Shown here: positions 82 to 24,931 of the stretch, in pieces
How the letters are laid out: each line of letters begins with the position of its first letter
Position numbering within the stretch: the stretch's first letter is position 1
NCBI GenBank assembly: GCA_029012085.1
Contig: JAQXLK010000235.1
Location: forward strand, 1 to 42,906
Origin: Clostridiales bacterium
GTDB taxonomy: Bacteria > Bacillota > Clostridia > Lachnospirales > Lachnospiraceae
Length of the DNA: 42,906 nucleotides
Direction: 5' to 3'
Program-made: the position numbers and the translations under genes
The notes under the pieces: generated by a model
Told to the model about the DNA's origin: nothing
Seen by the model: the letters and a program-made list of their open reading frames with translations, nothing else
Database searches by the model: none

Positions 82-188
82 ATAGCCCTCATGAAAAACA
101 ATTTTTTCGAATCTGAAGCTGTGTATTGATAACGTCTGTACAGTAACAAAGATACAATAAATTGTCCACTTTTCTCTACTTAGTACGT

Positions 189-228: not shown

Positions 229-286
229 CAGAACGTTCAAAATCCTATAGGAAGCATCAGATTATCAAAAGAAAGGAAGTGCACGC

Positions 287-832
287 ATGAAGAAACCCCT
301 CAGTGACCGGCAGATTATGGAACAGCTTTACGAACTTTATGAACAGAAAATGTTTATGACAGCCTATTCCATTCTGCGGGATCATCATCAGGCAGAAGAT
401 GCTGTACAGGAAGCATTTGTAAAGCTTTCCAGACATCTTAACAAATTCGGCAATGTGACTTCACGAAAAAGCCGTAACTATATATTAATGACCATAAAAG
501 ATGTAGCGATTGATATGTACCGAAAAAATAAACTAAACAGTACTTATACTTTTTCCACAGAAGATGAAAATCTGGATTATTTTACAGATAATTCATCCAT
601 TCATGACACACTGCAGATTGAAAATGAAATCTATATCAAAGATTTACTAAACAGACTTCCTCTTACATATAAAGAAATCATTATCGACTACTACTATAAG
701 CAGTTATCCATTACGGAAATTGCTCAGGCATTGAAAATCAGTGACGCTGCTGCCCGTAAACGATTGCAAAGGGCCGTTACTACCCTAAAAAATATGATAG
801 GAGATGAACATTATGAGTACAAAATTATTTAA
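287..832 (+). CDS. ECF-like RNA polymerase sigma factor (sigma-70 family)
   Basis: A 181-aa protein with the two-domain layout of ECF sigma factors. Region 2 is near residues 12-85 (AYSILRDHHQAEDAVQEAF, then a basic segment ending IDMYRKNK). Region 4 is near 112-170 (LPLTYKEIIIDYYYKQLSI, then the helix-turn-helix ITEIAQALKISDAAARKRLQ). No membrane segment, so a cytoplasmic regulator directing RNA polymerase to a stress or envelope regulon. AAAGGAAG 8-14 nt upstream supports the ATG. The 3' end overlaps the next gene, whose product has a membrane segment, the usual pairing of ECF sigma and anti-sigma factor. The regulon cannot be told from sequence. Confidence 0.9.
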   Translation: MKKPLSDRQIMEQLYELYEQKMFMTAYSILRDHHQAEDAVQEAFVKLSRHLNKFGNVTSRKSRNYILMTIKDVAIDMYRKNKLNSTYTFSTEDENLDYFTDNSSIHDTLQIENEIYIKDLLNRLPLTYKEIIIDYYYKQLSITEIAQALKISDAAARKRLQRAVTTLKNMIGDEHYEYKII

Positions 833-2312
833 TAACAATGAATTTTCTACATCGGATATAAAAAACAGCAACATTACTCTGGATGACTTCGACCATTTTG
901 AAGGAAACCACCAATTCTCAGAAAAATATACAGAAAAGAAATCTGCGTTTTTAGACAGCTTAAATGATAAACCAAAAGCTCATTTGTTCCGCTATAAGCC
1001 ATACCAGATTGCGGCTGTATTTGCTCTTATTCTGATTATTGGTTCTTCCACCACAATGGCTGCATCTAAACTTTACAAGACTCATCTCGAAAAAAATGAA
1101 TATCAGGCTGATATTGTAATCACTCCAGCCGTAAAATCCTCTACGGAATCCTCTGACCAATCATCCACTAAATTATCTGCAGATAGTGAAACAGATTCCT
1201 CTGACCAGACTTCTATTAAAACAGGGATCACAGGCTCATCAAGCTATGACTTCCAGCCGGTAAAGATAAAGTTTTCCTATCTTCCGGAAGGAGTTAAAAC
1301 ATCTGTTGATGAGGAGGATAAATATGAAAACCCAAACGATGAGAATCCTTCTGCACATGGCATCTCTCCGGGTGTTACAAAACTAGACTATGACGGAGAA
1401 ATCCACCTGACAACAGACTATATCGTATCCACAGAGGAGTTTACTTCCAACGGACGTCCTGCCTACCTTTTGAAAAAGTCCTCCAACTTTGAATACGACA
1501 AAATGCTTTATGTCCTTTTTGCAGACGAACATTACATGTTCGAAGCTTTGCTTGGATATGAAATTTCAGACGATGAAGCGAAGAAAATTGCGGATGGCAT
1601 CATCTTAGAACCTACCGATGCCGAACATGCGTCTATCACGAATTCCTATGCTGAAATAATGGAATCCCGGATTCAGGCAGAGGAAGATGACTACCAGCCA
1701 CTTTTCCCTAGTTCTTATTACAATATCGGGGATACGCTTCCAGTTGACCTCGACCTCAATCCTGACTGCCATGTGACTGTGGAGCAGGTAGAATACTACG
1801 ATTCCATTAAAGACTTTGACCGTTCTAATTTCAGGAATGATTTAAAACTGGATGAAAAATATATCACCGCTGACGGAACTCTTCTTTCCCGGGAACGCAA
1901 ACTTTATTCAGAAGGAGATGGCATCCATACTGTTCCAGAAGTCATTGAGTCAAAAAAAGTCAAACAGAAATTTGTCTACCTGACCATTAGTGTTGCCAAT
2001 TCTTCCCAAGAAGATGTAATGAACTATTGTACAGATTATGAACTTGCTTTCTTTAATGAAAATACAGATGGCACACTTACAGAAGATACGGTCTACTACA
2101 CCGATTCATCCTTTACCGAACCTATTTATTTTGACGCCTCCCTTACTAATAATCAGGATGAACACTTCCTGTATACAAAGATTCCTGCGGGACAAACCGT
2201 TACTTTCCATATAGGATTCCTTGTAGATGAAGACTACACAGATGAAATGTTCTTTTGTACCCGCGGAGCAGCAAGTTCTTATGTCCTGATAGACGTCCGC
2301 GAAAAGAAATAA
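813..2312 (+). CDS. Membrane-anchored anti-sigma-like protein
   Basis: About 499 aa. A roughly 60-residue N-terminal cytoplasmic part is followed by one membrane helix (IAAVFALILIIGSSTTMAAS), a Ser/Thr-rich stretch (SSTESSDQSSTKLSADSETD) and a large acidic extracellular part. This layout, and a start overlapping the ECF sigma gene, fits the clostridial sigma/anti-sigma pairs annotated with DUF4179 or DUF4367-like domains; the family match is from memory. I prefer the ATG at 813 over that at 804 because AGGAG (799-803) then sits at normal distance. Its likely job is to hold the sigma factor until an envelope signal arrives. The ligand sensed outside is unknown. Confidence 0.7.
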   Translation: MSTKLFNNNEFSTSDIKNSNITLDDFDHFEGNHQFSEKYTEKKSAFLDSLNDKPKAHLFRYKPYQIAAVFALILIIGSSTTMAASKLYKTHLEKNEYQADIVITPAVKSSTESSDQSSTKLSADSETDSSDQTSIKTGITGSSSYDFQPVKIKFSYLPEGVKTSVDEEDKYENPNDENPSAHGISPGVTKLDYDGEIHLTTDYIVSTEEFTSNGRPAYLLKKSSNFEYDKMLYVLFADEHYMFEALLGYEISDDEAKKIADGIILEPTDAEHASITNSYAEIMESRIQAEEDDYQPLFPSSYYNIGDTLPVDLDLNPDCHVTVEQVEYYDSIKDFDRSNFRNDLKLDEKYITADGTLLSRERKLYSEGDGIHTVPEVIESKKVKQKFVYLTISVANSSQEDVMNYCTDYELAFFNENTDGTLTEDTVYYTDSSFTEPIYFDASLTNNQDEHFLYTKIPAGQTVTFHIGFLVDEDYTDEMFFCTRGAASSYVLIDVREKK

Positions 2313-2351
2313 TATTTCATTCCAGCTAAAAAGATTACAACATCTACAAAA

Positions 2352-2398
2352 AAAGAGCCAATGACCTGTGAAAATCTCCACAAGTTCATTGGCTCTTT
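2352..2398. terminator. Bidirectional terminator
   Basis: Perfect 13-bp stem AAAGAGCCAATGA (2352-2364) / TCATTGGCTCTTT (2386-2398). Seven A residues at 2348-2354 give a T-run for minus-strand transcription, and TTT ends the arm on the plus strand. It serves the convergent ends of the anti-sigma-like gene and the minus-strand transcription unit. Confidence 0.85.
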
Positions 2399-2408
2399 GC
2401 TAAATTAT

Positions 2409-2540
2409 CTATTCCTCGCCCTGTACAAGATCCATTAACTGACCTGTTATGTCTGCCATATCCGTAGAAATCTGTTTGCTACTCTGTGAAATCTCTACGT
2501 TTGCTTTCTCAATTGCCTTCACCGCAATATCAAAAGAATC
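2409..2540 (-). pseudogene. C-terminal remnant, coiled-coil (chemoreceptor-like)
   Basis: Between the terminator and the stop of the repeat protein, one minus-strand frame reads as a protein tail: VDSFDIAVKAIEKANVEISQ, then SSKQISTDMADITGQLMDLV and QGEE, ending in TAG at 2409-2411. It has the spaced A/I/S heptad character of a methyl-accepting chemotaxis receptor tail. There is no start codon; the frame runs into the 3' end of the neighbouring gene in a different register. It looks like a leftover of a gene deleted when the upstream gene was joined here. The receptor identity is a guess. Confidence 0.4.
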
Positions 2541-4573
2541 TACTTTAACTTTAACAATTTTTTATATTTCCTTTTCTTGGAAGAAGGTACTTTTATCTTT
2601 GCATTAGACTTAATTCCCTTAAATGCATTCTTTCCTACTTTTTTTAATTTTTTTGATTTGATAGTTACTTTCTTTAACTTACTACAGCCTCTAAACGCCT
2701 CTTTTCCTATTGTTGTTACATTAGAACCAATTGTTACAGACGTCAGCTTTTTGTACTTCTTAAATGCATATTTTCTAATAGCAGTTACTTTATAGACTTC
2801 ATCTCCGAAAGAGAGTTTTGCAGGAATCACAATGTTTTTACATTTTTTATTTTTTGCACCTATGCACTCTACCTTTCCCTCTCCATTTTTAACCTCTAAC
2901 ACTTTATACTTTACACCCTTAACACTAAAGACGTCTCCCTTTTTTCTTACCAGCTTGCTCTCTATTGTTGTCGGTGTCTCTGTCTTCTTTTCCGTTGTTG
3001 TCGATACTTCTGTCTTCTTCTCGGTCGTTGCCGGTATTTCTGTCTTCTTTTCCGTTGTTACCGGTACTTCTGTTGTCTTCTCCGTTGTTTCAGAACTACC
3101 TTCATTTTTCGCATACTCTGCAAGATTGATACGAAGAACCGTTCCACTGTAAGTACTGACTTCAGAACTGCCAATTCCATCAATTTCACCATTACTGCCT
3201 AATCCAAAGTAAAGATACCCGTCATTATACGCAAAACTTCTGGCAAAAGACTTTGTTGGGAAACTTACCACTTTACGAAATTTTTCAAAATTATCATCTG
3301 TTTCAAATACTGCCGTCGTAAAATCATCTTTTCCATTTTTTACGGAAGCAAGGAAATAGTATTTTCCATCCTGCTCAAATGCATCACGAACTACATAATT
3401 TTCATATCCTTTTCCTAACGATACCGGTTCACATGACATCATATCCGGGCATTTAAAGATTCCATTGCATACTACCACAAACCATTTATCCGTTTCAAAC
3501 TTTGCCGTAAAAACCGGCTCACTGAAAACCGTTTCCTGTCCATATTTTAATTCCTCATATACTTGAGAATTATCTTCAAAGGAAAAATAGAAAGGAAGCT
3601 TTTTTCCCCCTGCATATGTACCATCCGGATTTGCATACGTAAAGTGTGTATAATTTCGATGCGCCGACACAATTGTTTGCGACTCCTTACCATCATAAAC
3701 CATATAAAATCCATTTTTTTCTTTATCATATTTAAATAAACCTGATGTCGTTGTGCAGGAATAATTCGGATTGGAAGTATGAATCGCATATAATTCATTT
3801 TTATATACAAATAAATTATATGCACGCCAGTAATCATAACAATAATAGGTCTTACCATCGTATGAACTGACACATTCTGTCGATTCAAACTCAGTCCCAT
3901 CTTGATAATAAAACTTAACAACCTGTGAACTTTTACTGGTACAGAAATCTTTCTTGTCCAAACTATTAACACAGCAATATATCTGGTCTTTTCCTGGTTG
4001 GATACGGTACATACCGCCAAAGAAAATCTTACCATCATATTCCACCATGTCATAAACATGTACGGCTGCCTGTAACGTATAATAATCTGTCCATTGATTC
4101 TTTGCACTATCATATTTGTAGTAGCTTCCATGAGCGGCTCCTAACGGATCCGTCGCCGTTGCATAAATCTCGCCATCAATTTCCATAAAACGCTTAATTT
4201 CCTCTGAGCTCAGTCCACCACTAAATCCGTTATAAGAACATTCCTTTTTCTCTGTCGAGTCATTCGTATAATAATAAATTGGCACTCTTCCTGTATTACT
4301 TTCATAATCGCCCATCGACAACAGAACTTTGCCATCTTTTACTGCCATATCCCAAATGTTCTTTGCATAATAGGAAGTTCCATACCGTTTCTCCCCTGGG
4401 ATCCCAAGATCTTCCGCTGTTACTTCTGCCTCATTCACTTTCGAAAGCAGATTGGAATCCGCTTCTTGTGCAAAAACTGTCTTTTCCGCTGCCAATCGCC
4501 TATCCACGTCAGGTAAAGACAGGGCTGACAAAACCATAGCAAACGCCATCATTCCTGCAAACTTTCTTTTCAT
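2540..4573 (-). CDS. Secreted protein with BspA-type leucine-rich repeats
   Basis: 677 aa. N-terminal signal peptide (MKRKFAGMMAFAMVLSALSL, small residues before cleavage near AEKTVFA). The middle (about 40-480) has many YYxY and W/F motifs with a repeated 'DGKxYF' pattern suggesting beta-propeller-like repeats. A Thr/Glu/Lys linker of four 10-residue units follows, then a C-terminal domain (about 555-677) with LRR_5/BspA repeats (IRKYAFKKYKKLTSVTIGSN, TTIGKEAFRGCSKLKKVTI, KKVGKNAFKGI) and a very basic end. No sortase motif is seen, so the basic tail may bind the wall. BspA repeats are common in gut Firmicutes surface proteins that bind host or polysaccharide ligands. AGAGGGG precedes the ATG. 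Ligand unknown. Confidence 0.75.
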   Translation of the reverse strand: MKRKFAGMMAFAMVLSALSLPDVDRRLAAEKTVFAQEADSNLLSKVNEAEVTAEDLGIPGEKRYGTSYYAKNIWDMAVKDGKVLLSMGDYESNTGRVPIYYYTNDSTEKKECSYNGFSGGLSSEEIKRFMEIDGEIYATATDPLGAAHGSYYKYDSAKNQWTDYYTLQAAVHVYDMVEYDGKIFFGGMYRIQPGKDQIYCCVNSLDKKDFCTSKSSQVVKFYYQDGTEFESTECVSSYDGKTYYCYDYWRAYNLFVYKNELYAIHTSNPNYSCTTTSGLFKYDKEKNGFYMVYDGKESQTIVSAHRNYTHFTYANPDGTYAGGKKLPFYFSFEDNSQVYEELKYGQETVFSEPVFTAKFETDKWFVVVCNGIFKCPDMMSCEPVSLGKGYENYVVRDAFEQDGKYYFLASVKNGKDDFTTAVFETDDNFEKFRKVVSFPTKSFARSFAYNDGYLYFGLGSNGEIDGIGSSEVSTYSGTVLRINLAEYAKNEGSSETTEKTTEVPVTTEKKTEIPATTEKKTEVSTTTEKKTETPTTIESKLVRKKGDVFSVKGVKYKVLEVKNGEGKVECIGAKNKKCKNIVIPAKLSFGDEVYKVTAIRKYAFKKYKKLTSVTIGSNVTTIGKEAFRGCSKLKKVTIKSKKLKKVGKNAFKGIKSNAKIKVPSSKKRKYKKLLKLK
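2969..3088 (-). repeat. Four 30-bp tandem repeats encoding a TTEKKTE linker
   Basis: Four successive 10-codon units (TTEKTTEVPV, TTEKKTEIPA, TTEKKTEVST, TTEKKTETPT on the minus strand) inside the BspA-like gene. They encode a flexible Thr/Glu/Lys spacer between the folded middle and the repeat domain. Such in-frame repeats can change copy number by slippage. Confidence 0.85.
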
Positions 4574-13283: not shown

Positions 13284-13437
13284 ATGCAATAATCACGTTT
13301 TCAAGTATTTCATGTTGTAATATTATCACGTTTTCAAGTTTTTCATGTTGTAATATTATCACGTTTTCAAGATTTTTATATCGCAATATTATCACGTTTT
13401 CAAGATTTTTACAATATATCATAATTACGTTTTCAAG
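13284..13437 (-). repeat. Five-copy 33-bp tandem array upstream of the DUF4143 ATPase
   Basis: The core CTTGAAAACGTG (minus strand) starts exactly every 33 bp: plus-strand cores at 13294, 13327, 13360, 13393 and 13426 (the last with one change). Between cores lies a less conserved ATAATATTACAACATGAAAA-like stretch. One frame stays open throughout and would encode LENVIILQHEK-type 11-mers ending 12 bp before the ATPase, but it has only a TTG start (13473) without a ribosome site, so I list DNA repeats rather than a gene. Iteron-like operator array or leader-peptide repeats are both possible. Confidence 0.85.
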
Positions 13438-13572
13438 ATTTTCAAAAAATCCTCCCTGTTCTTCCGCTTTCAAAGCATCTTATGAACAAGAAGGATTCTT
13501 TCATATTACTTATTAAATTATCTGCTATCTATAAAGACAATACTCTTCTCATAGTGCATCATACTATCCTCT

Positions 13573-15869: not shown

Positions 15870-15905
15870 GGAGAAACATTACCACTCACAATTTGACCAG
15901 CCTGC

Positions 15906-16262
15906 TTATTTTCGTAGTCTGTTGTCGATATATTGCTTAATAAATGCATCATCTATGTAATTTATTACCATAAAACCTTGTGCATCTGCAAAAACACATG
16001 GCTTCTTCTATAGTAGTTACTGAATCATCAACTATTTCCGAAGACGATTCTTCCGTAGAAACTGTATCCTCAGTTGTATTTGATTTTTCAAATGCTTCTT
16101 CATCCTTTAGTACTTCACTGTTTATAGTCTCAGATGATATTTCTTCTGTACTTACTTCATCTGAAAATGCTTCAGTAGTTATTTCTTGTGAAATAGTAGA
16201 TGATTTTTGTTTGTTACATCTAACCATCAACATAAATGTCATAATCCAGTTTTTCAGTCATG
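15906..16262 (-). pseudogene. Frameshifted small lipoprotein-like gene
   Basis: The central frame (16242 to about 15985) reads MTFMLMVRCNKQKSSTISQE followed by a long Ser/Thr/Glu-rich stretch: a hydrophobic start and a lone Cys like a degraded lipobox. Upstream, an ATG at about 16262 is out of frame with it by one base. Near the 3' end another frame takes over as a convincing C-terminus, KPCVFADAQGFMVINYID then DAFIKQYIDNRLRK, ending TAA at 15906-15908. Two frame breaks imply a decayed gene. It directly follows the RiPP precursor, where an immunity or accessory lipoprotein would be plausible; that is inference. Confidence 0.5.
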
Positions 16263-16281
16263 ATGTTTAAATAAATTTAGC

Positions 16282-16319
16282 CGCTTGTATCAATAAGCAA
16301 ACACCTCTCAAAACAAGCG
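16282..16319 (-). terminator. Possible terminator or attenuator after the precursor gene
   Basis: CGCTTGT/ACAAGCG (arms 16313-16319 and 16282-16288) encloses a 24-nt loop, followed on the minus strand by GCTAAATTTATTT. The U-tract is poor, so partial read-through into the lipoprotein remnant is more likely than strict termination. Confidence 0.35.
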
Positions 16320-16354
16320 ACCAAAAAACTCTTAAATCATTTATCTGACTCAAG

Positions 16355-16528
16355 TCACTTCGAAGAAAAATGTGCTGATGCTGATGATCCAGCAAGACCT
16401 AAAGCAGCACCTGCCGTACCAACAACAGTACCTGCCAATGCAGTCGCTAAACATCCACCTATACATGTTCCTACCGCAGACGCTGAACAAATAACAGCAC
16501 AAAACGATTTAGTACATTTCCACGCCAT
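16355..16528 (-). CDS. Cys-rich RiPP precursor (sactipeptide/ranthipeptide-like)
   Basis: 57 aa starting MAWKCTKSFCAVICSASAVG. Cysteines at 5, 10, 14, 22 and 26 (two C-x3-C pairs) fill the N-terminal half. The C-terminal half is almost only Ala, Gly, Thr, Val, Leu and Ser. This Cys-half/acceptor-half split is that of subtilosin, thurincin H and thuricin CD peptides, in which radical-SAM enzymes join Cys sulfur to a backbone carbon. The ATG is fixed by GGAAGGAGGAA 5-6 nt upstream, leaving only four residues before the first Cys, so a conventional leader is missing. A Gly-Gly at 24-25 is the only classical cleavage-like motif, but the exporter has no peptidase domain. It has its own promoter and follows exporter and maturase genes in the same direction. 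Exact class unproven. Confidence 0.8.
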   Translation of the reverse strand: MAWKCTKSFCAVICSASAVGTCIGGCLATALAGTVVGTAGAALGLAGSSASAHFSSK

Positions 16529-16551
16529 TGTGAATTCCTCCTTCCCCAATA

Positions 16552-16591
16552 TTTATATTGTGAAGATGAATCATTTCAACAATGGTTCATC
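16552..16591 (-). promoter_or_regulatory. Precursor promoter embedded in an 11-bp inverted repeat
   Basis: Minus strand TTGAAA (16574-16579), 16-bp spacer, TATAAA (16552-16557), just before the ribosome site. The -35 box lies at the centre of an inverted repeat, GATGAATCATT (16565-16575) / AATGGTTCATC (16581-16591), with one mismatch and a 5-nt gap. It is most simply an operator that would block the promoter. It could also act as a 3' hairpin for the upstream exporter mRNA. Confidence 0.55.
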
Positions 16592-16625
16592 ATTCAAATA
16601 TACAGTAAATAACATATCGATTTTA

Positions 16626-17318
16626 TCATCGATGAATATTAACCCAATACTCTTTACTTACTTTTCTAATTGCATTATGTATTAATGCCAAAACAATCAA
16701 TGTAACAATTATCGATGAAAGTACAACATACCAATTGATATCTATATTCTTATCAACTAATGTCTGACAAAAATATATAGAAAACATATATAATCCAGTT
16801 GGGAATATACCTGCTATCATATTTCCCAAACTCTTCGTTACCCACATAAGCAACCATAAAATTGCTGAAAAAGCCAGACTTATTACCGGGAAAATTAAAT
16901 ACATAAGTAAAATTTGCTCAAAAGAATATTTTATCCAAAATGACCACTGCATATAAACCGCCACTTCAAATATAATAGATGAAACTATCAAAGTTACATA
17001 TGCCAGAACAAATGCTGCTATGAGTTTACTTATCCATATATCTTGTTGCTTAATTCTATTTGCAAACAAATAAATTATAGTCTTATCCTTTATTTCAATA
17101 GCAAATGAGGAAGTAAGTAAAAGAGAAATTACAATACATATAATCATAGGTGACATAAACACAAAAGATATCCCAAGTGAAATCTCAACAATGCTTTGCT
17201 CAAAATCTGAATATAAAACGCAATTTATAAGCGGTGTTACACATGAAGCCAAAAGACATAGAAGTAATCCCGCACTTTTATAATAATGTAAAATATCTTT
17301 TTTTAATAATTTTTTCAT
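16626..17318 (-). CDS. ABC-2-type permease of the RiPP cluster
   Basis: 230 aa with six predicted membrane helices (LLLCLLASCVTPLINCVLYS, FVFMSPMIICIVISLLLT, LIAAFVLAYVTLIVSSIIF, ILLMYLIFPVISLAFSAILW, then two more). The size and topology are those of an ABC-2 half transporter. The ATG overlaps the TGA of the ATPase gene (ATGA), so the two are translated together. With that ATPase it should export the modified peptide or provide self-protection, like TrnF/TrnG in the thuricin CD cluster. No peptidase domain is attached, so leader removal, if any, must use another enzyme. Confidence 0.85.
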   Translation of the reverse strand: MKKLLKKDILHYYKSAGLLLCLLASCVTPLINCVLYSDFEQSIVEISLGISFVFMSPMIICIVISLLLTSSFAIEIKDKTIIYLFANRIKQQDIWISKLIAAFVLAYVTLIVSSIIFEVAVYMQWSFWIKYSFEQILLMYLIFPVISLAFSAILWLLMWVTKSLGNMIAGIFPTGLYMFSIYFCQTLVDKNIDINWYVVLSSIIVTLIVLALIHNAIRKVSKEYWVNIHR

Positions 17319-18184
17319 TTGTCGTCTCCCATCAAATTAAGATACATCTTTGTTAAACTATCTTTATCGAAGGTAACCTCACCAATAACAATTCCATTCT
17401 CCAACAACATAGACAATATAATTTGCAAATTATCAATTGTCATGTTATAAATTTTTAACTCATTATCTAATACAAATGTATAATTCAAATCTTCCAATAT
17501 TTTTGCAAGAAGTATTCTATCAGGGTTATGAAAAAGCTTAATTGAAACATATTCGGAATTGTCTTGCTTTAGTTCGCTTGTTTTTCCATCTAAAATTACT
17601 TTGCCATCTTTAACAATCACAAGCCTATCACATAATTCTTCTATATCACTCATTATATGAGACGTAATAATTATAGAATTTCCACTCTCTTTCCACTTAA
17701 GAAGAAATTTCATCCAATAGTGTCTGCTCTCAATATCTAACCCATCAAAAGGTTCATCCAAAATCAAAATATTAGGATTCTTCAGCAGTGCCCTAGCCAT
17801 TGTTAGTTTGCGTTGCATTCCCTTAGAATATGTATCGGTGCGACGATTTCTATCATCCCATAAATCAACCGTCCTTAAGACCTGTTCAATTTTATCCAAA
17901 GAGTCTTCCTTATCCAAATACAAAGACAAATTTTGGATAGCATTAAAGGAACTGTATAAACCATTAAAATCAAAAACTACTGACATTCTATCTTCTTTAT
18001 CAACAGAAACTTTTCCTGAGCTTGGTTTATTAATATCACATAATATTTTTATTAGAGTTGTTTTTCCAACACCGTTCGGACCAAGAAGCCCAACAATTTC
18101 GCCTTTGTCAAGTTTAAAACTGATTCCATTAAGTACTTTTTTATCTTTGAAATTTTTGTATATGTCTTCAACCACAATCATCAT
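17315..18184 (-). CDS. ABC transporter ATPase of the RiPP cluster
   Basis: About 289 aa. Walker A LLGPNGVGKTTLIKILC, signature TYSKGMQRKL (a common variant in ABC-2 exporters), Walker B ILILDEPFDGLD, H-loop SH. The C-terminal 80 residues are the accessory domain seen in peptide and drug exporters. Met codons at 18184/18181 are preferred to 18211 because GTGAGG lies just upstream and the protein then starts MMIVVEDIYKNF; the earlier start would lie in the end of the preceding gene. It is coupled to the permease downstream and to the SPASM protein upstream (overlapping junction), so one transcript is likely. Confidence 0.9.
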   Translation of the reverse strand: MMIVVEDIYKNFKDKKVLNGISFKLDKGEIVGLLGPNGVGKTTLIKILCDINKPSSGKVSVDKEDRMSVVFDFNGLYSSFNAIQNLSLYLDKEDSLDKIEQVLRTVDLWDDRNRRTDTYSKGMQRKLTMARALLKNPNILILDEPFDGLDIESRHYWMKFLLKWKESGNSIIITSHIMSDIEELCDRLVIVKDGKVILDGKTSELKQDNSEYVSIKLFHNPDRILLAKILEDLNYTFVLDNELKIYNMTIDNLQIILSMLLENGIVIGEVTFDKDSLTKMYLNLMGDDK

Positions 18185-18191
18185 TATTACC

Positions 18192-19343
18192 TCACGCTTT
18201 AATATTTTCACATATTAGTTTTCGCTTTAATTCCAAATCTAACGATTCAGCAACAATGCAATCCTCACATCCATTGCGATATATGCATCCAGCGCAAGAT
18301 TCTATTTTGCTTTTAGAAAGTCTCCACCATTTATATATCCCTTCATCAGAAAATACTTTCGCCATGTCAACTTCGGAAATATTACCTAAACTCTCTGTCA
18401 CACCCGGACATGGATGTACATCCCCATTGGCATCAATGGAGATTGTTCCTTTTAGGCAATTATGATTATAAAAATTTTCAGGAAACTTTATTTTTTTTAT
18501 TTCCTTTCTTTGTTCATATGTCAAAACCGTAGCAAGGCTGTCTCCCTCAATGAATTCGCTTACATTTTCAATATTTAATTTACTATCATTTGCTTTTTCA
18601 ATCGCAAACAATAGATCATCTTTGTTACCATATAAAGAAATTGAAAAATCAATTTTATTCTTTTTAGCGATTTCTATATTCTCACATTTAAGAAAATCTC
18701 GGGCTTCAATTGATAAAACCATTTTTGCCCTCTTTCTTTTAACTATATCTAAATGCATTGCATTCAATTTTCCGCCAACAATTAAGTGAAATACTACATC
18801 ATTATTTTTTGCATAAAATCGATTAACAAGTTCTTCAAGGCATTGGATTCCATCATCACCATCAATTCCCTTAATAAATAAATTTTTTATGTAATATTCT
18901 GAGAACAAATCAATAAAATTATCCAAGTAACCAACATTCTTTTGTTTCATTTTGATGCCTACCTGATAGCACGGACGAAGCACAGTCATATCGGACTTGA
19001 CACAACTATCTATATCAGAATAATCACCAAAATCCAAAAACATTTTTTCAATAAATGGTATTTTTTCTAATAAGCCACCAACATTTAAATCACTAGATGT
19101 TTTCCATTCTTCGATATGAATATTTTCTTCAAAAACATATGCGATTCCTTTTTTAATCATCTCATTAGCAAGTTCCTTATTTTTTACATGTTCCCAATGG
19201 CAAGTAAACATATCATTAAGGGCACTTGCATCTTTTCCATAATATGTTGTACTTACACCATCAAACAAATTAAGTAAGACCAATTCGTTATTCACTTCAT
19301 CATAGAGGTATTTGTAGCCCTGCAGCAAAAATAGTTTTTTCAA
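18192..19343 (-). CDS. SPASM protein without radical-SAM motif (pseudo-rSAM partner)
   Basis: 383 aa. The N-terminal ~80 residues (KKLFLLQGYKYLYDEVNNEL..) resemble the PqqD-like/RRE start of peptide maturases. The middle looks like a TIM-barrel with IEARDFLKCENIEIAKKNKI and FSISLYGN at radical-SAM strand positions, but no CxxxCxxC exists anywhere, so it cannot bind the SAM-cleaving cluster. The C-terminus is a SPASM-type auxiliary-cluster domain: Cys 296, 312, 350, 353, 359, 362 (CLKGTISIDANGDVHPCPG; CAGCIYRNGCEDC). It lies 21 bp after the intact maturase. It may be a scaffold or substrate-recognition subunit, comparable to the partner annotated TIGR04066 beside CcpM maturases; that link is from memory. 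Confidence 0.75.
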   Translation of the reverse strand: MKKLFLLQGYKYLYDEVNNELVLLNLFDGVSTTYYGKDASALNDMFTCHWEHVKNKELANEMIKKGIAYVFEENIHIEEWKTSSDLNVGGLLEKIPFIEKMFLDFGDYSDIDSCVKSDMTVLRPCYQVGIKMKQKNVGYLDNFIDLFSEYYIKNLFIKGIDGDDGIQCLEELVNRFYAKNNDVVFHLIVGGKLNAMHLDIVKRKRAKMVLSIEARDFLKCENIEIAKKNKIDFSISLYGNKDDLLFAIEKANDSKLNIENVSEFIEGDSLATVLTYEQRKEIKKIKFPENFYNHNCLKGTISIDANGDVHPCPGVTESLGNISEVDMAKVFSDEGIYKWWRLSKSKIESCAGCIYRNGCEDCIVAESLDLELKRKLICENIKA

Positions 19344-19364
19344 CCTGAATTCTCCTTATTCATT

Positions 19365-20855
19365 TTAATTGTTTAATAATAATTCTATAGGTGCAACTAA
19401 ATCATCATAAGCACTCCTATTGTTTTCTAACACAGAATACATTGTTGATAATTTCTCAATAAAGGAATTTATCAATCCCGAACAATTATAATTCTCAAAA
19501 GCTCCATCTTTGCAGCACTGAGCAAAACATATAGGACATTTTTTGTTCAGTGGACATTTCCAACAATCTTCTGTAACAGCTGAAGTAAAGTCATTAACAA
19601 TGTGTGCTATTTTATTATAATCAAGCCATCTGTCATATTGCCCTATAGAGAAATTTGGATTAACTCTTTCACACATATCCAGTTCACCTGTGGCTCTTAC
19701 GCTGACTTTGCTTCCTGGAATACACGCCCCTGTATACCGCAAAAAGTCGGGCCTATCATCATTAATTCTTGGCCTTATCATAGTTTCTGTCATAGGCATT
19801 TCGAACAAAGCAATTAAATATTTCTCAATATATTTGTTTTCGCTTCTCTTCCTTACATAATCACTTAACAAATCGTAGTAATCTTTAGCGTATCTTTCAA
19901 TATCATCCTGTGTAAATTGCTTATAATAGTCTGTATTATAGTCAGCAACCATCGTCATAAAACTAATCCTTGGTAAATCTTTATTTTCTTCAAAGAAAAT
20001 AAGATTATCCTTCAAATTTGTTTTAAAATCATTCACCATCAATATACTAATGTTGTTATATCCACTATGGCGTTTAGAAAAATCCTTCAAATTTTTCACA
20101 ACAATGTCAAATGAGCCATTACCATTTGTGAAAACTCTGTTTCTGTCATGATTTACTTTGTTCCCATCAAGACTCACTCCTATATAAACATTATTATCCA
20201 CTAAATAATCAGCTATTTCCTGATCCAAAAGTGTTCCGTTTGTAGTTATCGAAAAGATAACGTCAGCTGGTGCATTTTCTTTAGCGTATTCGATACAATC
20301 CTTAAGTAATGTCTTTTCCATTAATATTTCGCCACCATAAAAAGTAATTGCACACTTTTTACCGGGAATAGTCTTTTTAATTTTTGCAATTGATGCAAAA
20401 AAATTATCCATTGATTTCTTTGCAGTTTCAAAAGACATTTTGTTATATGTTCTGTTTCTTGAAAATTCATATACCGTAGACAGATAACAATACTTGCATC
20501 TCATATTACAGTTTTCAGTTAAATTTAAAATCAGCTGAAACATACCTCCATATTCAATGACATTTTGATACGCCTCCCTACATGTTAAATGTCCACTGTG
20601 ATTTTCCGAAGCAACAATGCCGCCCATAGAAACCAACTTAAATATATACTTTACAGCTCCTTCTACAAGCACACTATCTTCATATCTTTTGTTTAATTCG
20701 TTAAGTATCTCTTTCTTCTCATAACCTTCTCTGATATATACTAGGGTGTCTTGCATAATATCATCCATGGGATATATTCCACCAGTATAAGCATCATAAA
20801 AATAAGAGTTGCCATTTAAAGTTTTAAAGATTAATATATTAATGCTCTTTTTCAT
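19365..20855 (-). CDS. Radical-SAM/SPASM peptide maturase
   Basis: About 496 aa. Numbered from the TTG five codons upstream, Cys 121, 125 and 128 form the CxxxCxxC motif (NLTENCNMRCKYCYLSTVYE) that binds the SAM 4Fe-4S cluster. GGE (179-181), TTNGTLL and GVSLDGN are further radical-SAM markers. The SPASM domain holds Cys 383, 400, 436, 439, 445, 448, 452 and 463 for auxiliary clusters. The N-terminal 90 residues look like a PqqD-type recognition domain. The layout matches sactionine/ranthionine-forming enzymes (AlbA, TrnC/D, CcpM-like). I choose the ATG at 20855 over the TTG at 20870 because GGAAGGAAGG sits just before it. Expected to install thioether bonds in the Cys-rich 57-mer. Confidence 0.9.
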   Translation of the reverse strand: MKKSINILIFKTLNGNSYFYDAYTGGIYPMDDIMQDTLVYIREGYEKKEILNELNKRYEDSVLVEGAVKYIFKLVSMGGIVASENHSGHLTCREAYQNVIEYGGMFQLILNLTENCNMRCKYCYLSTVYEFSRNRTYNKMSFETAKKSMDNFFASIAKIKKTIPGKKCAITFYGGEILMEKTLLKDCIEYAKENAPADVIFSITTNGTLLDQEIADYLVDNNVYIGVSLDGNKVNHDRNRVFTNGNGSFDIVVKNLKDFSKRHSGYNNISILMVNDFKTNLKDNLIFFEENKDLPRISFMTMVADYNTDYYKQFTQDDIERYAKDYYDLLSDYVRKRSENKYIEKYLIALFEMPMTETMIRPRINDDRPDFLRYTGACIPGSKVSVRATGELDMCERVNPNFSIGQYDRWLDYNKIAHIVNDFTSAVTEDCWKCPLNKKCPICFAQCCKDGAFENYNCSGLINSFIEKLSTMYSVLENNRSAYDDLVAPIELLLNN

Positions 20856-21052
20856 AACCCTTCCTTCCAATAATATTTACACTTATTCGAAAAAGTTATA
20901 TACTTGTCCTAGGTACTTTTTCATAAGTGCTGATTATGGGACTCTGATGATACTTTGTGAATTATTCCGAGTCCTCTTTTTATATAAAGCCGTCCTGATG
21001 GAATTGTAAGACCGCAATATACCAATATGATTTCTAAACGATAAAACGTTAC
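20856..21052 (-). other. Leader between the small ORF and the maturase gene
   Basis: No convincing gene; a 13-codon ATG frame near 20926 lacks a ribosome site. Two hairpins are visible: GGACTC (20939-20944)/GAGTCC (20969-20974), whose T-run lies on the plus-strand side, and GAAAAAGT (20889-20896)/ACTTTTTC (20915-20922). They may tune read-through or stabilise the maturase mRNA. Confidence 0.4.
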
Positions 21053-21212
21053 TCAATTCTGGTTTTTATTCTTCTTTATCTCTGTCATTCTTCTAAATAC
21101 TTCCCAAAGCAACTTAATAAATTGATGCATTGACAGTAAAATATCAACCGGCAATCCATGCAAAAAATGTTTCTAACAAACTACCATATAACTGAATACC
21201 CAAAAAAGTCAT
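21053..21212 (-). CDS. Small ORF with apparent frameshift, between LytTR system and maturase
   Basis: GGAGGAGGT (21221-21229) stands 8 nt before ATG 21210-21212, one of the strongest ribosome sites in the window. The frame reads MTFLGIQLYGSLLETFFAWI-AG and stops at 21144-21146 after 22 residues. If one T of the T6 run (21162-21167) is removed, the reading continues as LHGLPVDILLSMHQFIKL, LWEVFRRMTEIKKNKNQN to a stop at 21053-21055, giving 52 aa with an amphipathic middle and basic tail. So it is either a genuine 22-mer, a slippage-controlled ORF, or a recently broken gene. It does not look like AgrD: no Cys-containing ring motif and no AgrB nearby. It is first in line behind the LytTR-type promoter. 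Confidence 0.6.
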
Positions 21213-21236
21213 AGTTTTATACCTCCTCCAAACAGG

Positions 21237-21304
21237 ATACTAGCATACAAAACTATGACTCACAACAATAGCTTAATTATCGGTCGTTTAACTTAATTAA
21301 CGGT
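21237..21304 (-). promoter_or_regulatory. LytTR-type promoter: two direct repeats plus extended -10
   Basis: On the minus strand, direct repeats ACCGTTAAT (21296-21304) and ACCGATAAT (21276-21284) start 20 bp apart, about two helical turns, resembling the paired 9-bp sites of AgrA/LytTR regulators (usual period 21 bp). The second repeat ends 10 bp before a -35 box TTGTGA (21260-21265); after 17 bp comes TAGTAT (21237-21242) preceded by TGC (extended -10). Weak boxes with activator sites immediately upstream suggest a regulator-dependent promoter. The LytTR gene is 1.3 kb upstream. Confidence 0.6.
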
Positions 21305-22605
21305 CATTTTGTTCTCAAACTCACGACACTACAGAACTCATTTCCCTCTATGGAATATTCATATACTCCCTGGTTTTTCTGAACTGTCTCTTTAATATTC
21401 TTAAGGCCTATACCATGAATTTCTTTTTCTTTTTTGGTTGTTTGCAAGTTGCCATTTTTATCAAACATCACCGATTCAGCTTTCATCGAATTCTTGATTA
21501 TCAAACGGACAAACATATCTCCGACGACTATTTCTATGCTTAATCTTGGTTTATCCAAGTCGCATATTTGTATTGCCTCCACTGCATTTTTCAGTAAATT
21601 CGACACAATCGTTCCCAAATCATAATCCGATAATACTGTTTCTTTTTTCCACATTCCTTTTACAGAAACATTAACATTTTCATCCAACTGTGATACATAA
21701 TAATTTATCATGATATTCATCAATTTATTTCCTGTATCATAATTACTATTACGAATTTGCTCTACATATCCCAGCATATTCTTTATGTACGATTTCGCCT
21801 CTTCAAGCTCTTGTTCACAAAGCAATTTATCCACAAATGAAAGATGATTTATTATATCATGACGGAATTCCTTTGTCCGTTCTTCTTTTTTTAGCAACTC
21901 TTCAAAATGCTGTATTTCCAATTGGTACAGTTTTTTTTCCATTTCCATCATACGCTGCATTTTTTCATTCATGTACTTCACATAATATACTATCGCAAAT
22001 AGAACACCAATACTAATCATTGCAAATATGCACACTACACTTCCTATTATGTGAATCCGCACTTTGTGAATAGTTTTCAAAATATAATTCAAATATACGA
22101 TAACCGCCATAATTTCCACAGTAACCAGAATAAGAATTGGAATTACTAATTTCCGAAAAGTGTTCTTTATACCACTATCTTTTTCACGAATTCTATTATA
22201 TAAGATAGCAAATATAATAAGTATAACCAAATCAATCAAAGAACTGATTACATCTTGTACCTTCGACGAAATCCCTTTAAAATAAAACAATAAATCTCCA
22301 ACCACAATACTTGTCAGCTCTTCTTGATAAAACAAAAGAAAACCATAATATAACTTTGATTTCCAATCCTTATCAACAGGGACTTTCACCATCATAATAT
22401 ATGATAAAATAATCATACTCCACGTTAGTACTCCCATATCGTCAGGATGAAATGGTACAAAAAAGAACATCATGCTTAGTATTCCATATGCAAATGGAAT
22501 AAACCATTTTTTTACAATATCACATCCAAAAATATACTTTGCACCAATCCATATACAAATTGATTCTACTCCATACAATATTAATAAAAGTATTCTGCTA
22601 TCCAT
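21304..22605 (-). CDS. AgrC-like GHKL sensor histidine kinase
   Basis: 433 aa. Six or seven membrane helices fill residues 1-210. A coiled coil leads to FRHDIINHLSFVDKLL with phospho-acceptor His 249 (HPK10 family), then a GHKL ATPase with N-box SNLLKNAVEAIQ and HGIGLKNIKETVQ. Such kinases (AgrC, ComD, PlnB type) sense extracellular peptides. It starts 2 nt after the regulator stop codon, so the two are co-translated. Its stop codon overlaps the first LytTR-type repeat of the next promoter. The signal is unknown; the cluster's own Cys-rich product or the small-ORF peptide are obvious candidates (inference). Confidence 0.9.
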   Translation of the reverse strand: MDSRILLLILYGVESICIWIGAKYIFGCDIVKKWFIPFAYGILSMMFFFVPFHPDDMGVLTWSMIILSYIMMVKVPVDKDWKSKLYYGFLLFYQEELTSIVVGDLLFYFKGISSKVQDVISSLIDLVILIIFAILYNRIREKDSGIKNTFRKLVIPILILVTVEIMAVIVYLNYILKTIHKVRIHIIGSVVCIFAMISIGVLFAIVYYVKYMNEKMQRMMEMEKKLYQLEIQHFEELLKKEERTKEFRHDIINHLSFVDKLLCEQELEEAKSYIKNMLGYVEQIRNSNYDTGNKLMNIMINYYVSQLDENVNVSVKGMWKKETVLSDYDLGTIVSNLLKNAVEAIQICDLDKPRLSIEIVVGDMFVRLIIKNSMKAESVMFDKNGNLQTTKKEKEIHGIGLKNIKETVQKNQGVYEYSIEGNEFCSVVSLRTK

Positions 22606-22607
22606 AT

Positions 22608-23324
22608 TTATCCTCTGTATTTGAGATCAAAATCCATAAAGACCCTTTCAAATTCTTTGCTGTTTCGTCTTGACAATGGTAAGATTTCTTTGTCAATAAA
22701 CACTTTGTCTTTTGTATATTCCGTAACAAAACCCAAACCAACAATAATCGCCTTGTGAATTTTGAAAAAAATATGTTCATCCAACATTTCTTCCATCTTA
22801 CTTAGTGTCACTTCTTTATGAAAAACAGTATTACGCGCATATATATTAACTGCCCCATTATAAGCTTGTATATACCGGATTTCCCGTTGCATAATATAAT
22901 ATGGTTTTCTATTTTTATATACCTCGATTTTCTGCAATCCTACTTGATAGGTTTGTAAATACGCATCAATTGCTTCCATTATTTCCTCTCGGTTATACGG
23001 TTTTGACACGAATCTCATTGCATCTAATCGAAATACTTCTTTCATTCTATCTTCTCTTGCTGATGCAACTATAATCTTACATTTCTCATTTTCTCTTCTT
23101 ATACGCTCACCTGTTTTAATTCCATCCATTTCAGGCATTTCTAAATCTAAGAAAACGAGATTTACATTATCTATCTGCTCCAACAAATCTCTTCCGGATT
23201 GAAACGCTAATATCTCATATTCTATCTTCTTCTCATCCATTATATTACTAATAATATTGGTCATAAATTTTGTCATTTCCAATATATCATCACATATGGC
23301 AATTCGTATTATATTATTTTCCAT
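22608..23324 (-). CDS. AgrA-like LytTR response regulator
   Basis: 238 aa. Receiver domain 1-120 with CDD (11-13), phospho-acceptor Asp 60 (VFLDLEMPEMDG) and the conserved KPY (about 106-108). The C-terminal LytTR domain (about 135-235) has the typical start YYIMQREIRYIQAYNGAVNI and the end LPLSRRNSKEFERVF. GGAGAG precedes the ATG. LytTR proteins bind paired direct repeats, and such a pair lies right after the kinase gene, before the small ORF and maturation genes. The simplest model is peptide-triggered activation of the RiPP operon. Confidence 0.92.
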   Translation of the reverse strand: MENNIIRIAICDDILEMTKFMTNIISNIMDEKKIEYEILAFQSGRDLLEQIDNVNLVFLDLEMPEMDGIKTGERIRRENEKCKIIVASAREDRMKEVFRLDAMRFVSKPYNREEIMEAIDAYLQTYQVGLQKIEVYKNRKPYYIMQREIRYIQAYNGAVNIYARNTVFHKEVTLSKMEEMLDEHIFFKIHKAIIVGLGFVTEYTKDKVFIDKEILPLSRRNSKEFERVFMDFDLKYRG

Positions 23325-23369
23325 TTGGTAGACTCTCCTCAGTGAAATCCCATGCTTCTTTGCCTTTTC

Positions 23370-23398
23370 AATATAACATCTTCTCAGTAAGATAACAA
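23370..23398 (-). promoter_or_regulatory. Promoter of the LytTR two-component operon
   Basis: Minus strand TTGTTA (23393-23398), 17-bp spacer, TATATT (23370-23375), about 45 bp before the regulator ATG. Confidence 0.55.
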
Positions 23399-23420
23399 AA
23401 ACCCTGTCACCTCTTTTTGC

Positions 23421-24263
23421 TTACTCCTCCAGCAGCGCCTGATAAACCTCCCGCTTTCCGATTCCTCTGTCCTTCGCCACTGCCTTCATGGCATCCTTTT
23501 TATCCATCCCCTGGTTCATATAATGTTCCACATGCTCCGGAATACTCAAAGAAAGCACATCCTGCATTTCCTCTTCCCGAATCGCCTGCCTGTCAGCACC
23601 TTCTATCACCAGCACAAATTCCCCTCGAGGCTCCTGCTCCTCATAAAATGCGATTGTTCCTGCAAGGGTTGTCCGATAGTTTTCTTCATGCTTTTTCGTA
23701 AGCTCCCGGCACAAAGAAATGCTGCGGTCACCCAATGCCTCATACAAGTCCTTCAGCGTCTTCTTAAGCTTATGAGGTGCCTCGTACACAATGATTGTAC
23801 GGGTCTCTTTCTTTAACTCCTCTAACACTGCTGCCCTCTCTTTTTTATCATATGGCAAAAAGGCTTCAAAACAAAACCGTCTCGTCTTCTGTCCGGAAAT
23901 GGTAAGTGCCGTAACAAATGCCGAAGGTCCCGGAAGAGAAGTCACTTCCACTCCTGCCTCTAAACACTGTCTCACCAGCTCTTCACCCGGATCCGATATT
24001 GCCGGTGTTCCCGCATCGGTAATCAGAGCAATATTGGTTCCTGCCAGCATTTTCTCTACTAATAGTTTTGCCTTGTCGTATTTATTAAATTCATGATAAC
24101 TCGTCATCGGTGTTTTGATTTCAAAATGATTCAACAGCTTAATGCTGTTTCTTGTATCCTCTGCCGCAATCAAATCCACCTCTTTTAAAATGCGCAATGT
24201 CCGAAGGGTAATATCCTCTAAATTCCCAATGGGAGTTGCGCATATATATAACATTCCTGCCAT
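23421..24263 (-). CDS. rsmI: 16S rRNA (cytidine1402-2'-O)-methyltransferase
   Basis: 280 aa, normal length. Start GMLYICATPIGNLEDITLRT is the RsmI signature; LIAAEDTRNSIKLLNHF, LITDAGTPAISDPGEELVRQ and SLPGPSAFVTAL follow, typical of the SAM-binding tetrapyrrole-methylase fold. It methylates the ribose of C1402 in the decoding centre. AGGAGA precedes the ATG. It is the last gene of the housekeeping block and is separated from trmN6 by the type III toxin-antitoxin locus. Confidence 0.95.
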   Translation of the reverse strand: MAGMLYICATPIGNLEDITLRTLRILKEVDLIAAEDTRNSIKLLNHFEIKTPMTSYHEFNKYDKAKLLVEKMLAGTNIALITDAGTPAISDPGEELVRQCLEAGVEVTSLPGPSAFVTALTISGQKTRRFCFEAFLPYDKKERAAVLEELKKETRTIIVYEAPHKLKKTLKDLYEALGDRSISLCRELTKKHEENYRTTLAGTIAFYEEQEPRGEFVLVIEGADRQAIREEEMQDVLSLSIPEHVEHYMNQGMDKKDAMKAVAKDRGIGKREVYQALLEE

Positions 24264-24330: not shown

Positions 24331-24813
24331 TCATCCTATATATTCTTTACATCTTTTTTCCAATTCCACAAAATTATTTGTTCTTTTCGCAAGTGGTGTT
24401 GCATCACCATATCTTAACTTATGTTTATATACAATATCTGCATTTTTCAAAATACGATTTCTCTGACGGTTAATTTCACGACTTTCTGCCTGCATCAAAA
24501 ATCTATATTGCTGATCTTTTGTCCCATTCACATCCACTAAATGATATTCTCCTTCTGGAACAGGAACTATATTATTTATGTTAATTACTGCATAATCCCG
24601 AAGCTTTATAAAGTCCACAGATCCTTTCATTCTTTTATGCTTTTGTTTAAATGATGATAAAGGAGCAAAATATTTTAAACCATTCATTTGTAAAATAATA
24701 CCTATGTATTTTCTGTTTGCTTTATCTCCATCTGAAATAAACAAATGATCTTGGTATTTTGCTAAATATTTTATGTAGTTTGAATTTATCTCATATAACT
24801 TTAGTCCTCTCAA
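24331..24813 (-). CDS. ToxN/AbiQ-like type III toxin endoribonuclease
   Basis: 160 aa from a TTG start (24811-24813) set by GGGAGG 7 nt upstream. The ToxN/AbiQ fold signature is clear: KLYEINSNYIKYLAKYQDHL, KYIGIILQMNGLKYFAPLSS and the following FKQKH, matching the APL[ST]SxK catalytic loop (Ser 53, Ser 54, Lys 56 here). Known members are endoribonucleases neutralised by a repeated RNA, and they cause phage abortive infection or dormancy. Directly upstream are repeats of about 38 nt, a terminator and a promoter, the whole type III arrangement. A longer frame into the repeats is open, but it would cross the terminator and is not the start. No C-terminal truncation is evident (usual length 160-180). 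Confidence 0.9.
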   Translation of the reverse strand: MRGLKLYEINSNYIKYLAKYQDHLFISDGDKANRKYIGIILQMNGLKYFAPLSSFKQKHKRMKGSVDFIKLRDYAVININNIVPVPEGEYHLVDVNGTKDQQYRFLMQAESREINRQRNRILKNADIVYKHKLRYGDATPLAKRTNNFVELEKRCKEYIG

Positions 24814-24827
24814 ATGATTTCCTCCCG

Positions 24828-24854
24828 AAAAAAACAGGGGCAAAAATGCCCCTG
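24828..24854 (-). terminator. Terminator between antitoxin RNA and toxin gene
   Basis: Minus strand CAGGGGCA/TGCCCCTG (24847-24854 and 24835-24842), 4-nt loop, then seven T. It directly precedes the toxin ribosome site. In ToxIN systems such a leaky terminator keeps antitoxin RNA in excess over toxin mRNA. Confidence 0.95.
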
Positions 24855-24931
24855 CTGTTAACTCGCTCATTTAAGGGCTGTGCATCACCCACTCTTAACT
24901 CGCTCACTTATAAGGCTGTGCATCACCTTCT
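24852..24931 (-). ncRNA. Type III antitoxin RNA, two tandem repeats
   Basis: Two copies of a 38-nt unit begin at 24927 and 24889 on the minus strand. Each opens GGTGATGCACAGCC and contains GAGCGAGTTAA; they differ by small changes between (TTATAAGT against CTTAAAT). They lie between a promoter and a strong terminator, just upstream of the ToxN-like toxin. Known antitoxins of this type have two to six repeats of 33-48 nt, each processed unit binding one toxin. GTGATGCACAGCC is the best candidate for the pseudoknot core. Confidence 0.88.

Follow-up and report, generated by a model that had tools for sequence, protein, structure and literature searches.

Recognition of a leader peptide by a RiPP precursor recognition element (RRE) is the working model for many enzymes that act on ribosomally synthesized and post-translationally modified peptides (RiPPs), and genome mining commonly seeks a leader followed by a core. 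Known sactipeptide leaders span 8–29 residues (PMC8326336), and the published thuricin CD and thuricin Z clusters pair two radical S-adenosylmethionine (SAM) enzymes (PMC12093266, PMC8172795). In thuricin Z, Cys 4, 8, 12 and 16 are linked to residues 38, 34, 30 and 26 (PMC8172795), and thuricin CD carries the links C13–S21 and C9–T25 (PMC12093266). In this work, we describe a locus on a 42,906-nucleotide contig of a Clostridiales bacterium of the Lachnospiraceae (assembly GCA_029012085.1, contig JAQXLK010000235.1; this whole stretch is called the window), which holds a gene cluster of a rare kind; its peptide product is probably sulfur-bridged and perhaps antimicrobial. We consider it likely that this is a leaderless sactipeptide-type cluster, switched by a LytTR/GHKL two-component system, in which a radical SAM maturase works with a pseudo-radical-SAM partner and the product leaves by ABC-2 export (Table 1).

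Scanning the GTDB species collection with a profile gave 56 loci, and precursors were sought in 16 of them (L057–L069 and L071–L073), the other 40 being more distant or partial matches. Thirteen loci (L057–L068 and L073), with maturases at 38–46% identity, form the close clade; their hosts are Lachnospiraceae, Ruminococcus flavefaciens ATCC 19208, a Halanaerobiales, a Clostridium, a Defluviitaleaceae metagenome-assembled genome (MAG), a Clostridia MAG and a Coriobacteriales genome. Twelve of these 13 relatives (13 of 14 clade members with the window) have a precursor homologue within the cluster, the exception being L067, in which the maturase frame is interrupted by a stop. An earlier annotation made from the letters alone (the sequence-only reading) had proposed looking for the 57-residue precursor in otherwise conserved clusters, where it was indeed found, and for homologues apart from any radical SAM gene; none of the latter was accepted at E ≤ 0.001 among 391 genomes of the class, a search that recovered no other clade member and whose sensitivity is shown by the window alone. 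The precursor gene precedes the maturase gene in nine clusters, follows the permease gene in three (window, L060 and L068) and occupies the gap between ATPase and permease genes in L066.

All 14 precursors from these 13 clusters (the window and 12 relatives) have only 1–5 residues before the first Cys, below the 8–29 residues of a sactipeptide leader. Starts were chosen by eye as those favoured by the upstream sequence; in L064 and L065, two nearby ATG codons give either two or four residues. In nine of the 14, in-frame stops limit any leader to 2–12 codons and so exclude a long one: the ceiling is 2 codons in L057, 4 in L060, 6 in L066, 7 in L065, 8 in L073, 9 in L059b, 10 in L058 and in L064, and 12 in the window. 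The remaining five have ceilings of 27–63 codons, and the short leader there rests on the ribosome-binding site. On the maturase tree, the leaderless state amounts to one change (L072 not counted). Thus, the nearly leaderless precursor with MAWK before Cys 5 noted by the sequence-only reading is not peculiar to the window, and the short leader is a family trait.

The Cys residues of these peptides form a CX3C ladder. In 11 precursors, 39 of the 44 successive spacings in the N-terminal half were multiples of four, against a random mean of 7.7 and a maximum of 18 in 20,000 draws (the ladder test set aside L063, L065 and L073, and the phase test described below also L058 and L059b, as near copies or a second copy). 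All five Cys of the window precursor fall in the N-terminal half, and with its ladder and phase this adjacent Cys-rich peptide answers to the precursor of a sactipeptide cluster, with predicted acceptors in the C-terminal half. In the C-terminal halves of nine precursors, positions in phase with the ladder were poor in Gly (6% vs. 19–26%), a value reached in 6 of 5000 shuffles, or in 11 of 5000 when any phase was allowed. By loop size, Gly was lowest at loops of 4, 8 and 12 (7, 9 and 11%, respectively; background 19%). Thr was highest in the ladder phase (22% vs. 6–12%), a weaker signal equalled for any phase in 245 of 5000 shuffles. The tails of the 14 precursors are rich in Ala, Gly, Ser and Thr, with at most one Asp or Glu per precursor. 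With an inner loop of 8, the outermost predicted rung would fall 0–4 residues from the C-terminus in 12 of the 14, and with a loop of 10 no more than two residues from it (12 of 14; L060 overshoots by two), so that hardly any space remains for a leader or follower; in L061 and L063 it stops 5–7 residues short. The four-residue ladder together with the in-phase C-terminal half is the pattern to be expected, at the level of sequence, from a nested sactipeptide hairpin of the thuricin CD and thuricin Z type, filling the whole open reading frame (ORF) and with a mirrored site bridged to every ladder Cys.

Under this reading, the ladder residues Cys 5, 10, 14, 22 and 26 would be joined to α-carbons of residues in the C-terminal half, which is rich in Ala, Gly, Ser and Thr. 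A nested helical hairpin would result, with T34, T38, A46, A50 and S55 as the acceptors predicted from a thuricin-CD-like inner loop of 8. Since no leader is present, the whole translation product would be core, and the enzymes would therefore have to recognize the core itself. The maturase in complex with its pseudo-radical-SAM partner would carry out bridge formation.

The maturase carries an intact CNMRCKYC motif and SPASM Cys residues that are invariant or nearly so in the alignment, as in sactipeptide maturases. Its best NCBIfam matches are sacti- and ranthipeptide maturases, led by CcpM (TIGR04068; 2.8e-62, 211 bits) and followed by the RumMC family (NF035951; 174 of 720 bits). An AlphaFold2 model (pLDDT 84), judged by inspection, shows an RRE-like β-β-β-α-α-α domain at residues 7–76, the RRE domain that a sactipeptide cluster would hold. 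The best structures were 5wgg by sequence and 5why by fold, both of which we take to be CteB. RumMC2 requires its RRE even with a substrate lacking a leader (PMC8188230) and AlbA is not strictly leader-dependent (PMC8326336), which makes core recognition by enzymes of this type plausible.

The partner, described by the sequence-only reading as a pseudo-radical-SAM SPASM protein, does lack CxxxCxxC and does retain a SPASM domain. What that reading did not know is its ancestry: CxxxCxxC is intact in 13 of 20 aligned partners, so the family is one of second radical SAM enzymes, and the window partner descends from such an enzyme. The motif is lost in the window, L061, L062, L063, L064, L065 and L073, and the SPASM Cys residues are conserved in all 20 (the alignments include L067 and omit L066, which has undetermined residues, and the divergent L072). 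Hence, in contrast to two-radical-SAM clusters of the thuricin CD and thuricin Z kind, only one of the two window proteins carries CxxxCxxC, and the CxxC that follows the lost motif is reduced there to one Cys. On the maturase tree, the loss takes two changes (2–3 in bootstraps), and it takes three on a tree of four genes from which the motif region had been cut; holding all seven motif-less partners together was rejected on the latter (approximately unbiased test, p 9.15e-5). The maturase alignments and trees were made without L067, owing to its broken frame, and the concatenated tree without L043, L067 and L072. Taken together, the sequences point to about three separate events of loss. This agrees, by analogy, with the result that TrnD with a mutated CxxxCxxC still supports full modification at slightly reduced activity (PMC12093266). 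In the AlphaFold model of the same study, TrnD sits mainly on the leader (PMC12093266); with no leader here, the partner must do something else, and most simply it would hold the core or the maturase.

Regarding the relatedness of the precursors, a profile built from the relatives with the window left out ranked the window precursor first among 438 window ORFs (E 1.1e-6; next 1.8). Each precursor was likewise the top ORF of its own locus with E values between 5.7e-14 and 0.0037, the weakest being L073, and the two L059 copies held the top two places at theirs. With free shuffling, the similarity of the window peptide was equalled by at most 3 of 1000 shuffles for 7 of 13 relatives. Among sequences in the Protein Data Bank, the precursor profile matched only 2l9x (0.2) and 2la0 (0.65) at E ≤ 10, neither being significant; we take both to be thuricin CD peptides.

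The next relatives beyond the clade are two TA06 loci. Their precursor candidates have longer N-terminal parts, of 10 residues in L069 and 20 in L071, where the match is weak (E 5e-3); no precursor was found in L072. As separate observations, the maturase frame is broken by a TAG in L053/L067, a Defluviitaleaceae MAG in which no precursor was found, and in L046 (4899–5326) two precursor candidates with about 15–17 residues before a run of Cys at every third residue lie beside a related cluster with two radical SAM genes. With the window partner as query, 11 of 397 family genomes matched at E ≤ 0.001, the convincing ones besides the window being G136, G193 and G155; with the maturase, 392 genomes of the order gave four matches besides the window at E ≤ 1e-40, G593 being the only one of these in the close clade. 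A first scan of genome contigs with the window partner gave no match. Plasmids gave no match to the precursor, and the intact L057 partner as query found plasmid pRUMAL03 of Ruminococcus albus 7 as the only plasmid match. A viral origin was rejected: the 55 viral loci with radical SAM relatives reached at most 35% identity among the matches listed, and 28% in the best long match. An orphan precursor match in the 391 class genomes (E 1.8e-4) was set aside as chance, since a stop interrupts it and it falls within a 251-residue frame, acyltransferase-like by eye.

With respect to regulation, the region between the kinase gene and the first small ORF holds the direct repeat ACCGTTAATTAAG-N7-ACCGATAATTAAG, the single match of its kind, whose pairing was absent from 100 shuffles and which was also recovered by TRF. 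Presumably it resembles known LytTR sites. A LytTR regulator gene and a direct repeat upstream of the operon, a predicted site, are thus both present, as in a LytTR-regulated operon. The regulator presumably binds this repeat, and the cluster would be regulated through it, a quorum-type LytTR/GHKL two-component system turning on a sactipeptide-type cluster. A half-site scan allowing two mismatches showed no second repeat before the regulator or precursor genes: single half-sites were at chance frequency (4 found vs. 4.24 expected), two of the four being the direct repeat itself, and so no second site is indicated there. Sigma-70-like sites in the region were likewise at chance level (45 vs. 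44.7).

As for export, Pfam recognized no dedicated protease among 10 window proteins or 10 flanking proteins of relatives, and the window ABC ATPase shows no peptidase domain. An M23 peptidase lies further upstream of the cluster in L058, and one flanking protein of L057, which matched no family, is serine-protease-like by eye. The modified peptide would leave through the ABC-2 transporter with little or no proteolysis, and the transporter may also confer immunity. We put at about even chances the fuller proposal that this is a RiPP clade without leaders, in which the product is an all-core, symmetrical thioether-bridged helical hairpin of about 4–6 rungs, the RRE, instead of reading a leader, holds a partner turned scaffold after several losses of its radical SAM cluster, and the peptide is exported whole with no protease.

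Several observations weigh against the reading set out above. With the Cys positions fixed, the pairwise similarity of the window peptide clearly exceeds that of shuffles (at most 6 of 1000 as high) for just three of the 13 relatives, L060, L066 and L068, so that much of the shared precursor signal is ladder and composition, and the case for a common origin of the precursors is carried mainly by the profile searches and by gene position. The Gly phase test was designed after the loop-size table had been seen. The loop size, and with it the exact acceptors, is a prediction, loops of 4, 8 and 12 being in the same phase and all Gly-poor, and links to α-carbons would look the same in sequence as links to β- or γ-carbons. 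Among the matches shown, the maturase reaches no curated cut-off (CcpM, 211 of 500 bits), and it retains its RRE-like domain although no leader is seen. Well-supported branches alone force a single loss of CxxxCxxC on both trees, which contain long branches and place the window itself with poor support, and the structure of the partner was modelled with low confidence (pLDDT 68.6). Finally, a few N-terminal residues may still be trimmed by a general peptidase.

Other explanations were weighed against the same data. It is very unlikely that the window encodes an ordinary sactipeptide with a leader of about 11 residues begun at an upstream in-frame TTG (MGKEEFTMAWK), the leaderless state then being an annotation error. 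Ahead of the ATG the window frame does stay open, and leaders of eight residues are known (range 8–29 residues, PMC8326336), but that TTG has no ribosome-binding site, the ATG is preceded by AAGGAGG at a normal distance, and stops hold the leaders of L057, L060, L066, L065 and L073 to 2, 4, 6, 7 and 8 codons. A leader might otherwise be supplied in trans by the 22-residue ORF, which lies in the 5′ region of the maturase operon behind a strong ribosome-binding site; its product would bind the RRE-like domain, a domain kept even though no leader is visible. We regard this as highly improbable, as a non-exhaustive small-ORF scan listed no similar ORF in the 12 other clade loci, where precursors are equally leaderless, and among 200 family genomes the only strong match was the window itself (next best E 0.34). 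Decay of the cluster, with the partner as a pseudogene product and no activity in this genome, would account for the missing CxxxCxxC and the single Cys left of the next CxxC, and one relative, L067, is visibly broken; yet all other frames in the window are uninterrupted over the length expected of them, the SPASM Cys residues persist in all 20 aligned partners, and six relatives share the loss with maturase, ATPase, permease and precursor all present, which makes decay quite unlikely.

The bridge chemistry and the role of the product are likewise open to other readings. The same maturase could join Cys to β- or γ-carbons, yielding a ranthipeptide or a mixed thioether peptide. Acceptors of that kind are mostly Asp, Glu, Asn or Thr, and no precursor has more than one Asp or Glu; the four-residue ladder, moreover, fits thuricin Z and thuricin CD, both with S–Cα links. 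In favour of this alternative, the best structure by sequence is 5wgg, CteB is named a ranthipeptide enzyme in PMC12093266, and PapB-family and SCIFF maturase profiles also match the maturase; on balance we hold it to be unlikely. It is also doubtful that the mature RiPP or the product of the 22-residue ORF is a pheromone for the GHKL kinase, the peptide then being mainly a signal. The kinase and regulator genes adjoin the cluster, and L066 has AgrB (2.9e-36) and a short AgrD-like ORF beside its own kinase and regulator; of the 13 clade loci that bear a precursor (counting the window), however, just seven were found to have LytTR genes, and the small ORF was found in the window alone. L066 is counted among the seven with a LytTR match below the Pfam cut-off, in a frame that ends early. 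Its region 135–3067, in which the AgrB gene, the short ORF, the kinase and the LytTR-type regulator stand beside a leaderless-precursor cluster, is an observation in its own right; the short ORF has no Pfam match and looks AgrD-like on our own reading. On the whole, we retain the leaderless sactipeptide-type cluster as the preferred account, and for it we infer S–Cα chemistry, an enzyme complex, core recognition, the export route and an antibacterial function.

The cluster genes all lie on the minus strand (Table 1). The complete, co-directional LytTR-type radical-SAM RiPP cluster of the sequence-only reading is supported by coordinates and Pfam matches, and its gene list was correct in content, order and strand. 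The maturase is counted from its ATG, the listed ORF beginning at a TTG five codons earlier, and the ATPase probably begins not at the listed GTG but at an ATG about 27 bases further in. The kinase is, we assume, AgrC/ComD-like. The ATPase shares 31–40% identity with those of close-clade relatives, and the permease resembles permeases of related clusters. The small-ORF scan (minus strand only; ATG, ribosome-binding motif, 12–75 codons, outside frames of at least 120 codons) found only two in the region, the 22-residue ORF and the precursor; it is non-exhaustive, having missed the L060 precursor. Neither the stretch between the 22-residue ORF and the maturase gene (z 0.33) nor that before the precursor gene (z −0.26) folded better than shuffles, giving no sign of a structured RNA.

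Table 1. Features of the cluster and the stretch of the window that holds it.
Feature	Position	Strand	Evidence or remark
Stretch without counterpart in same-genus genome G020	15872..23437		Flanks 95 bp apart there, 7,566 bp here
Precursor, 57 residues, nearly leaderless; Cys 5, 10, 14, 22, 26	16355..16528	−	MAWK, then Cys5
ABC-2 type permease	16626..17318	−	Weak Pfam ABC-2 matches, best 0.029
ABC transporter ATPase	17315..18211	−	Pfam ABC_tran 1.2e-28
SPASM partner, degenerate second radical SAM protein without CxxxCxxC, SPASM Cys kept	18192..19343	−	SPASM 2e-7
Radical SAM/SPASM maturase, RRE-like N-terminal domain, CxxxCxxC intact	19365..20855	−	Pfam radical SAM 9.5e-17
22-residue ORF MTFLGIQLYGSLLETFFAWIAG	21144..21212	−	Strong ribosome-binding site; first ORF past the repeat
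Direct repeat of LytTR-site type (predicted), 20-bp period	21272..21304 (33 bp)	−	Directly after kinase gene
GHKL sensor kinase	21304..22605	−	Pfam HATPase_c_5 (GHKL domain) 2.5e-19
LytTR-family response regulator	22608..23324	−	Pfam Response_reg 2.9e-19, LytTR 1.8e-12

The stretch absent from G020 takes in the cluster, the last 17 bp of rsmI and an ORF at 15949–16242, and its alignable flanks are the end of rsmI (87% identical in G020) and the metG T-box leader. The empty site rests on one genome, because G020 was the sole one of 23 same-genus rsmI loci with metG inside the 1.5 kb covered. G+C content is 30–33% in 16001–23000, compared to 31–43% elsewhere in the window, where most values exceed 34%, and the maturase has no close homologue in 25 other genomes of the genus (best E 4.8e-27, 27% identity). 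Based on the empty site, the low G+C and the lack of a close maturase homologue in the genus, the cluster was likely acquired recently.

Other features of the surroundings were also recorded. The ORF at 15949–16242 (minus strand), downstream of the precursor gene, encodes a Ser/Thr/Glu-rich protein of 97 residues that matched no family convincingly and may be what is left of an immunity or surface protein. Between rsmI and yfiC-like genes, a ToxN protein of a type III toxin–antitoxin system is encoded at 24331–24930 (minus strand; Pfam 1.3e-46), and at the 5′ end of its gene two repeats, each about 36 nt long, look ToxI-like by eye; none of the 23 loci of same-genus relatives showed a toxN match, and in 17 of them the yfiC-like gene adjoins rsmI. 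Tandem repeats occur at 2965–3089 (30 bp, 4.2 copies) and 13292–13444 (33 bp, 4.6 copies).

A clade that retains an RRE-like domain and has no leader allows one to ask directly what role an RRE plays without a leader. The repeated natural loss of the partner's radical SAM site parallels, in evolution, the mutation made in TrnD of thuricin CD and suggests that the lasting role of the second protein is structural. If it is true that the whole ORF is core and that no leader is removed, peptides of this kind could be made and engineered without proteolysis.

Regarding known systems, among the closest are the thuricin Z/huazacin cluster and the huazacin-family cluster on plasmid pRUMAL03 of R. albus 7. 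The latter comprises the same set of genes, and clusters of this type are therefore already known. There, two identical huazacin-family precursors precede the maturase gene, with 18 residues before the first Cys, and the second radical SAM protein keeps CxxxCxxC, unlike that of the window. The R. albus precursor matches the huazacin family NF037972 (2e-13, 50 bits; cut-off 35 bits), in contrast to the window precursor, which gave no match at E ≤ 1, and the maturases are about 30% identical. The best match of the window maturase is to the CcpM/CLI_3235 Cys-rich peptide systems (TIGR04068), at a score below their equivalog cut-off of 500 bits; for SacP23, a precursor of that family, a 19-residue leader is predicted by its authors. 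Ruminococcin C is a double hairpin. Its RumMC1/RumMC2 enzymes, like the window maturase, combine an RRE, a radical SAM and a SPASM domain, but its leader has 19 residues, and the window maturase falls under the RumMC cut-off.

The candidate for an undescribed system named by the sequence-only reading is thus not a new cluster type, given pRUMAL03, thuricin CD and thuricin Z, and what stands of that claim is the unusual leaderless clade with its losses of the partner site. No description of a leaderless precursor clade or of natural pseudo-radical-SAM partners was seen in the available text of the open-licence PMC literature searched. Thuricin CD shares with the window a two-protein maturase and a Cys spacing of four (C5, C9, C13) with nested links; the radical SAM chemistry of its partner TrnD is not essential, as would hold for the window partner lacking CxxxCxxC. 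The two are set apart by the leaders of TrnA and TrnB, absent here, and by the loss of the partner motif in nature. What is new is, therefore, the leaderless precursor together with a natural pseudo-radical-SAM partner.

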